In this document: positions 8,044 to 8,632 of the stretch, in pieces
Layout of the letters: each line of letters starts with the position of its first letter
Numbering within the stretch: the stretch's first letter is position 1
NCBI GenBank assembly: GCA_017416065.1
Contig: JAFQDM010000006.1
Coordinates: 1 to 46,035 of the forward strand
Direction of reading: 5' to 3'
From: Ruminococcus sp.
GTDB taxonomy: Bacteria > Bacillota > Clostridia > Oscillospirales > Acutalibacteraceae
DNA: 46,035 bases
The notes under the pieces: model-generated
What the model was told of the DNA's origin: nothing
The model's database searches: none
Seen by the model: the letters and a program-made list of their open reading frames with translations, nothing else
Position numbers and translations under genes: made by a program

Positions 8044-8120
8044 TGGTCGAGGTGACGGGATTCGAACCCACGACTTCTTCGTCCCGAACGAAGCGCGCTA
8101 CCAAACTGCGCTACACCTCG
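8044..8120 (-). tRNA. tRNA-Pro (anticodon CGG)
   Basis: The 77-nt cloverleaf includes an encoded CCA. The acceptor stem is CGAGGTG/CACCTCG with discriminator A. The D-arm is GCGC...GCGC. The anticodon stem CTTCG/CGAAG encloses loop TTCGGGA, giving anticodon CGG. The T-arm contains TTCGAAT. A terminator follows directly. The 5' flank consists of truncated copies of this same gene. Confidence 0.95.
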
Positions 8121-8365
8121 ATATTTACTTATATTTTTTAATAACACATCTTGACGAAGAATCCTCTTCGTCCCGAAGGTCGCGCGCTACCAAACTGCGC
8201 TACACCTCGATATTTACTTATATTTTTTAATAACACATCTTGACGAAGAATCCTCTTCGTCCCGAAGGTCGCGCGCTACTAAACTGCGCTACACCTCGAT
8301 ATTTACTTATATTTTTAATTACATATCCTGACGAAGAATCCTCTTCGTCCCGAAGGTCGCGCGCT
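8121..8365 (-). repeat. Tandem array of truncated, remodelled tRNA-Pro 5' halves
   Basis: Two 89-bp units (8121-8209 and 8210-8298) differ by a single base, and a third (8299-8365) is partial. Read on the minus strand, each begins like the adjacent tRNA-Pro (CGAGGTGTAGCGCAGTTTGG, then TAGCGCGC), keeps TTCGGGACGAAGA (the anticodon CGG region), and lacks the T-arm and 3' acceptor strand. The 5' anticodon-stem bases are changed so they cannot pair. Instead GACGAAGA pairs perfectly with TCTTCGTC across a GGAT loop. An AT-rich spacer (GTGTTATTAAAAAATATAAG) joins the units. They precede the intact tRNA-Pro in the direction of transcription. No full tRNA can fold from any unit. Confidence 0.85.
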
Positions 8366-8490
8366 TCCTGTTGCAACCGGGACTCTGTCTGCGTGAGCAA
8401 CGCTCACTTGCCAATCGTCAGGTTGCTGCCACTCCTTTTTCCTCGCTTCATCCGCCCCCGGCGGCGCTCGGAAACGTCCCCAAACTGCGC
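8366..8490. other. GC-rich insert splitting the third tRNA-Pro-like unit
   Basis: At the point where units A and B continue with ACCAAACTGCGC (plus strand), unit C has about 114 nt of much more GC-rich sequence (8366-8479). After this, CCAAACTGCGC resumes (8480-8490) but the acceptor strand is missing. The insert contains a GTGAGC-AAC-GCTCAC hairpin and a CCGCC...GGCGG inverted pair. It has no convincing ORF. It may be a small palindromic mobile repeat. Confidence 0.55.
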
Positions 8491-8523
8491 AATATATTTC
8501 AATTAAATGGTAATTACCTCGGT

Positions 8524-8554
8524 AAAAAGACGACCCCGAATTTCTTCGGGGTCG
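8524..8554 (-). terminator. Intrinsic terminator after tRNA-Gln
   Basis: On the minus strand, CGACCCCGAA, a 4-nt loop and TTCGGGGTCG are followed by TCTTTTT, 4 nt after the encoded CCA. Confidence 0.88.
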
Positions 8555-8558
8555 GACT

Positions 8559-8632
8559 TGGCTGCGGAACTAGGATTCGAACCCAGACAAACAGAGTCAG
8601 AGTCTGCTGTGCTACCCTTACACAATTCCGCA
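8559..8632 (-). tRNA. tRNA-Gln (anticodon CTG)
   Basis: The 74-nt cloverleaf includes an encoded CCA. The acceptor stem is TGCGGAA/TTCCGCA with discriminator G. The anticodon stem GCAGA/TCTGT has loop CTCTGAC, giving anticodon CTG. The T-loop is TTCGAAT. It has its own promoter upstream and a strong terminator downstream, so it is probably a single-gene unit. Confidence 0.93.

Follow-up and report, generated by a model that had tools for sequence, protein, structure and literature searches.

The locus examined here raises the question of why a Ruminococcus genome should carry three broken tRNA-Pro 5' halves upstream of an intact tRNA-Pro. Mobile DNA is well known to integrate into tRNA genes, where its usual sites are the anticodon and the region nearer the 3' end. 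In the window, by which we mean the whole 46,035-nt stretch of DNA analysed, the intact tRNA-Pro(CGG) (ARAGORN; Rfam tRNA, 65.1 bits) lies at 8044..8120 on the minus strand, as do all features of the locus given below. A distance of 438 nt separates it from tRNA-Gln(CTG) (8559..8632), which was identified by tRNA calling and is the upstream neighbour in the relatives' loci too. This interval contains an array of 89-bp units, each consisting of an A/T-rich leader and a tRNA-Pro 5' half, with units at 8121-8209 and 8210-8298 and a third starting at 8299.

Sequence and repeat register place the leader of the intact tRNA-Pro at 8121..8152; it recurs identically before copy A (8210-8241) and as a 31-nt variant before copy B (8299-8329), and is absent from the 11 same-genus tRNA-Pro loci compared. 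The 5' halves of copy A (8165..8209, also placed by repeat register) and copy B (8254..8298) differ at a single base, position 8280, so that the two near-identical 89-bp units and the third described in an earlier, sequence-only reading are indeed present. As that reading also stated, the units carry the acceptor 5' strand, D-arm and anticodon region without the T-arm and 3' acceptor strand; the 5' strand of the anticodon stem is altered, GACC replacing TTCG, and a new 8-bp partner pairs perfectly with the 3' strand. The resulting fold-back hairpin, GACGAAGA-GGAT-TCTTCGTC on the minus strand, occurs three times: hairpin A at 8153..8172 (pattern match 8153-8179, and fold), hairpin B at 8242..8261 (pattern match 8242-8268) and hairpin C at 8330..8349 (pattern match 8330-8356). 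The pattern CCTTCGGGACGAAG-N6-CTTCGTC, which spans the hairpin, has three matches in the window genome, all in the array, and none among the other 299 family genomes searched. That a unit could fold was likewise borne out by comparison with shuffled sequences, relative to which it is more stable (z -2.83 for 8165-8253 and -3.27 for 8254-8342).

The third unit had been taken for a partial one ending at 8365. A third copy exists, but its end at that position does not stand, since a 115-bp insert, here called E, interrupts it from 8367. More specifically, copy C is split after the D-loop GG: the portion after E, from the D-stem 3' strand to the anticodon stem, lies at 8342..8366, E itself at 8367..8481, and tRNA sequence picks up beyond E with the D-arm 5' strand GCGCAGTTTGG at 8480..8490, the first GG of E overlapping the D-loop GG of copy C. 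The two-hairpin repeat in this D-loop scores 95.4 bits with covariance model R1, the window E being one of the 28 copies from which that model was built. A possible acceptor 5' remnant of the original 5' half, CGAGGT at 8516..8521, is a weak assignment from a 6-nt match only. A consensus scan, the only basis for both statements, gives a terminator-like hairpin after tRNA-Gln (8531..8554) and no promoter-like site between that hairpin and tRNA-Pro; judged from its position between the two tRNA genes, the array may be co-transcribed with both.

Comparison with relatives shows that the array is not a fixed part of the locus. Among 23 same-genus genomes searched, it was absent at 11 of the 11 tRNA-Pro loci compared; in ten of them tRNA-Gln lies 31-60 nt upstream of tRNA-Pro, and in the eleventh (L013) no upstream tRNA was called and the spacer is short. 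The array was therefore either gained in the lineage of the window or lost in others. Absence from close relatives, named earlier as a sign against the array, thus holds for these 11 loci and fails at two others with the same composite. A goat-colon metagenome-assembled genome (L171) has tRNA-Gln, a broken 5' half with E, the hairpin GACGAAG-N6-CTTCGTC, a second 5' half and intact tRNA-Pro; L111 has E, the window-type hairpin and intact tRNA-Pro, with an integrase-like ORF just past the tRNA. A third genome, G131, assembled as one contig, has a tandem array upstream of tRNA-Pro(TGG). That such arrays arise in metagenome assembly is very unlikely. The draft assembly that contains the window has 36 contigs, and contig ends close to these repeats are frequent among the relatives, but the window array is internal to a 46-kb contig, and arrays of the same class occur in G131 and on a 775-kb contig (L253).

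E is the most widely recurring part of the window array. As a discrete repeat it measures about 107-117 nt, and AAGGAGTGGC separates its two different hairpins. In the order sample, 74 of 295 genomes have at least a partial match (E-value 0.001), many of them partial, and by our count from the match list 38 of the 295 have matches covering at least 90 of 112 nt. The family sample has matches in 38 of 200 genomes, short matches included, and the phylum sample in 2 of 149 under stricter filters (E-value 1e-6), one of the two being the window's own genome. A degenerate pattern for E found at least 116 stretches in GTDB genomes, among which 80 titles name Clostridia, Clostridiales, Oscillospiraceae, Ruminococcaceae, Eubacterium and one Candidatus Coliplasma. 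In all, the pattern scans, which demand an exact 5' motif, yielded at least 128 copies in at least 117 stretches. The sole stretch from viral contigs among these is L213: this 4847-bp IMG/VR contig carries several copies and fragments of E and a frame read as terminase-like. Searching the INPHARED phages with one copy of E as query gave no match. Elsewhere in the window, 732-828 on the plus strand has a very weak match to the E model, probably due to chance (15.1 bits, E-value 0.0046). The window genome has a second, divergent E (G000:C19:1823-1940, L090) beside sequence read as a tRNA-Met 3' fragment, and a tyrosine integrase domain lies on the same contig at C19:9144-9716. Another genome of the genus, G480 (L228, L233 and others), has 15 model matches, mostly of 62-63 nt, perhaps a shortened E subfamily.

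The pairing of E is seen across copies. In alignment A2 (28 copies), which was not fitted to a model although the structure was read from the same 28 copies, 95.4% of pair cells are standard, with 68 double-change cells compared to 16.5 after shuffling and two one-sided changes. Alignment A3, with 117 distinct copies among the matches listed, fitted to the covariance model, gives 95.8% pairing, 371 double changes against 84.7 shuffled and 14 one-sided changes; the inner part of the second hairpin pairs less well (82.7%). G-U intermediates are nearly absent from the stem changes in A3, and double changes with almost no G-U steps suggest that the stems are conserved as DNA pairing. Folded alone, the window E is no better than its shuffles (z -0.29 on the minus and -0.82 on the plus strand); its structure rests on the comparison between copies. 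Neither the window's E (E-value up to 1) nor E at eight other loci (up to 0.5) is covered by a match to Rfam 15; matches in the window to flavivirus xrRNA and SpF41 fall far below the gathering score and were taken as chance. A Gut-1 RNA (Rfam RF01706, 77 bits) lies directly downstream of one tRNA-Ser locus with E (L072:1171-1245, minus strand).

Because the 128 copies were found by pattern, their selection is independent of tRNA. Across the order, E recurs at a fixed position directly after the conserved GG of the tRNA D-loop, within truncated tRNA 5' halves. Among the matches listed, the left flank resembles a D-loop in 96 of the 128, with one error allowed. An intact tRNA follows on the same strand less than 700 nt downstream in 83, and two copies have a tRNA on the opposite strand within 700 nt; for 16 of the D-loop-like copies, the stretch examined contains no intact tRNA. 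The tRNAs at the 83 copies are Ser(CGA) (31), Ser(TGA) (22), Pro(TGG) (17), Pro(CGG) (12) and Asn (1). For 50 of these 83 listed copies the gap between E and tRNA measures 42-92 nt, and for the rest it reaches up to 452 nt; a tRNA 3' half was found in the gap at none of the 83. Random loss of integrated elements would not account for such short spacing. The left flank aligns to the 5' end of the downstream tRNA in 66 of the 71 listed copies tested, the end of E not being found in the others of the 83. The right junction is irregular, reading GG-A where intact D-loops read GG-T, and the exact ends of E are approximate. E also occurs in an anticodon loop or variable region (L042, L020, G131). 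Vertical inheritance at one tRNA-Ser locus found no support as a general account: the largest clusters of shared flanking genes, counted apart from frames overlapping E itself, comprise 5-6 of 75 loci.

Duplication of the flank distinguishes tRNA copies from the others. The flank-recurrence test covered 119 of the 128 copies, nine being dropped for short flanks, and among the matches listed the left flank recurs downstream of E in 77 of 92 tRNA copies and 3 of 27 others (controls, which differ per class, 0.16% and 1.3%, respectively). With 3 of 27 in the latter class, duplication is not a by-product of every E insertion. The hairpin at the break also recurs. In 22 of the 66 aligned copies, among the matches listed, a perfect stem, 7 bp or longer, lies within 45 nt after E, compared to 1.5% of shuffles, which supports the earlier view that the changes are not random decay; 44 of the 66 have no such stem. 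By our reading, one arm of the stem is local tRNA sequence in 19 of these 22 listed cases, and the arm types, AACGGGGC, AACGAGC, TACGTTC and GACGAAG, track the local tRNA, which points to repeated fold-back rather than a single inherited motif. The window fold pairs the acceptor strand with the altered strand GACC, but this pairing is not supported by L161, which retains ACCTTCG although the acceptor sequence of its broken copy differs.

Truncated 5' halves also occur without E. Genome G052, which is outside the set of order-sample genomes with an E match, has two 5' halves and an intact tRNA-Ser at 78-bp spacing (L253/L255, G052:C1:756000-766000), with an integrase-like ORF adjoining the tRNA-Ser and GACGCCC repeats in between. 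Genome G269 has two 5' halves upstream of tRNA-Ser without E there and an E elsewhere (L042). Under one strict pattern such E-free halves are rare (2 of 394). In longer loci, direct repeats, for example TTTGACCAC twice, lie between the broken half and the tRNA, and these may be integrase arm sites. Integrase ORFs stand beside the tRNA in 6 of 75 tRNA-E loci, including L111 and L157, the latter resting on 40 aa. An integrase between displaced half and intact tRNA was seen in none of the loci scanned, the window spacer being 32 nt, and an integrase 3' end within 600 nt in 0 of 19 examined. With no integrase seen in that position, the attachment-scar step is one that we infer from the arm-like repeats.

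E is also found in other settings, away from tRNA genes among them. On the 861-kb replicon of Vescimonas fastidiosa (NZ_AP023416.1) the model has 37 matches, which fall into two or more subfamilies (L214, L245-L248); all of the 22 that were read are intergenic by a gene table known to be incomplete, and many sit within larger palindromes such as GGGCCGATG..CATCGGCCC. Nesting in an outer hairpin fits these copies and was rejected as a rule, as it does not fit the 23 non-tRNA copies tested, whose outer stems have a mean of 3.74 compared to 3.64 with shuffled partners. At L207 and L169, the latter just under the threshold of the flank-recurrence test, E lies near the start of integrase-like genes in the order broken start, E, intact start. 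Two copies with a different second hairpin lie in frames read as Rhs-like (L091, G180:C28), and at a contig end (L017) copies stand head to tail behind a tRNA-Ser-like flank with the junction CAACAGG-GGACG.

Taken together, we consider it somewhat better than an even chance that the array is debris of tRNA-Pro 5' halves hosting a mobile, D-loop-directed repeat, brought about by two independent processes. Elements with an attachment site in the anticodon arm, or local duplication, would give the tRNA a new leader and 5' half, displacing the old half. E, probably recognised as folded single-stranded DNA, would insert after the D-loop GG by means of some mobilising enzyme, and its insertions would last where an intact tRNA is left. 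The hairpin would then stem from fold-back copying where the displaced half ends, and tandem amplification of the leader-plus-half unit would yield copies A and B. Of the origins proposed in the sequence-only reading, integration scars and a mobile repeat both fit when combined, as E sits inside one 5' fragment; its interpretation as a whole is partly supported.

The main question is whether insertion and duplication are separate. If they were coupled, insertion of E would stall replication, and the nascent strand would fold back into the hairpin and re-copy the leader and 5' half, the gene being restored in the same event. We regard this as unlikely, while noting that the layout of leader, 5' half, E, continuation, leader and intact gene at several kinds of tRNA and at two integrase-like genes favours it; so do the regular spacing and, among the matches listed, the flank recurrence in 77 of 92 tRNA copies and the perfect stems in 22 of 66. 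Separate processes are indicated by the flank-recurrence test, with repeated flanks at only 3 of 27 listed non-tRNA copies, by downstream leaders that differ from the upstream ones in many first copies among those listed, L171 included, and by the 5' halves that exist without E. In its strongest form, with E as the first recognised site-specific mobile family targeting tRNA D-loops, moving as folded single-stranded DNA, making truncated copy and hairpin in the same insertion and thereby rescuing the gene, the coupled account is one we likewise regard as unlikely.

Less probable still is that the composite functions as a leader RNA or a tRNA-derived small RNA, whether as decoy, as processing signal or by regulating the tRNA downstream. 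Compensatory changes maintain structure, the array lies between two tRNA genes, and among the matches listed 83 of 128 copies are upstream of and sense to a tRNA, with a TTGACA/TATAAT-like sequence before E, by our reading, at several loci. Yet the 11 same-genus loci manage without an array, E is scattered away from tRNAs in Vescimonas, and the near absence of G-U intermediates would be unusual under RNA selection. Under the best explanation, no host function for the array is needed. We are equally doubtful that E is a non-autonomous element of the IS200/IS605 kind. Elements of that type have hairpin ends and transpose as single strands 3' of a fixed short motif with no target duplication, and E resembles them in its two hairpins, DNA-like covariation, insertion after a fixed left GG and the head-to-tail junction in L017. 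No mobilising enzyme was found and, with PF01797 as the family compared, E showed no association with a Y1 transposase: Y1_Tnp (PF01797) occurs in 29 of the 74 order genomes with E compared to 27.6 expected, which lends this enzyme no support as the mover of E.

The locus can also be set beside known systems. Rickettsia palindromic elements are palindromic repeats able to sit inside genes; E, too, is palindromic and can occur within genes, and to our knowledge no D-loop specificity is known for them. In an account of REP elements that names some of the Rickettsia elements as well (PMC3733652), the GTAG/CGTC superfamilies are defined by one short palindrome (20-40 bp) bearing an unpaired tag, GTAG or CGTC. 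E is likewise a small, dispersed, palindromic DNA repeat, presumed mobile, but it falls outside that definition, with 107-117 nt, two different hairpins, a 112-position model, no GTAG/CGTC tag and a preference for tRNA D-loops. Where a 5' piece of a tRNA precedes the intact gene, integration is the recognised cause in the Islander report, which gives 5' fragments in 159 of 3919 islands and anticodon-centred sites in 2083 (PMC4383910). Compared with these islands as described there, the window fragment is similarly upstream, in the orientation of the intact tRNA and broken near the anticodon arm, but in the window neither an island nor an integrase separates the fragment from the tRNA; the fragments there are several, short and in tandem, the D-loop contains a foreign repeat, and the break is marked by a fold-back hairpin.

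In the open-access papers listed by our searches we found no description of E or of D-loop insertions, and E is apparently a little-described genomic parasite aimed at tRNA genes; the best reading is a small mobile palindromic repeat with an unusual target. A hairpin repeat that prefers D-loops would extend the range of parasites known from tRNA genes. Matched at least in part by one in four genomes sampled from an order with many gut bacteria, E would account for recurring broken tRNA halves, and it would offer a tractable case of structure maintained at the level of DNA rather than RNA.
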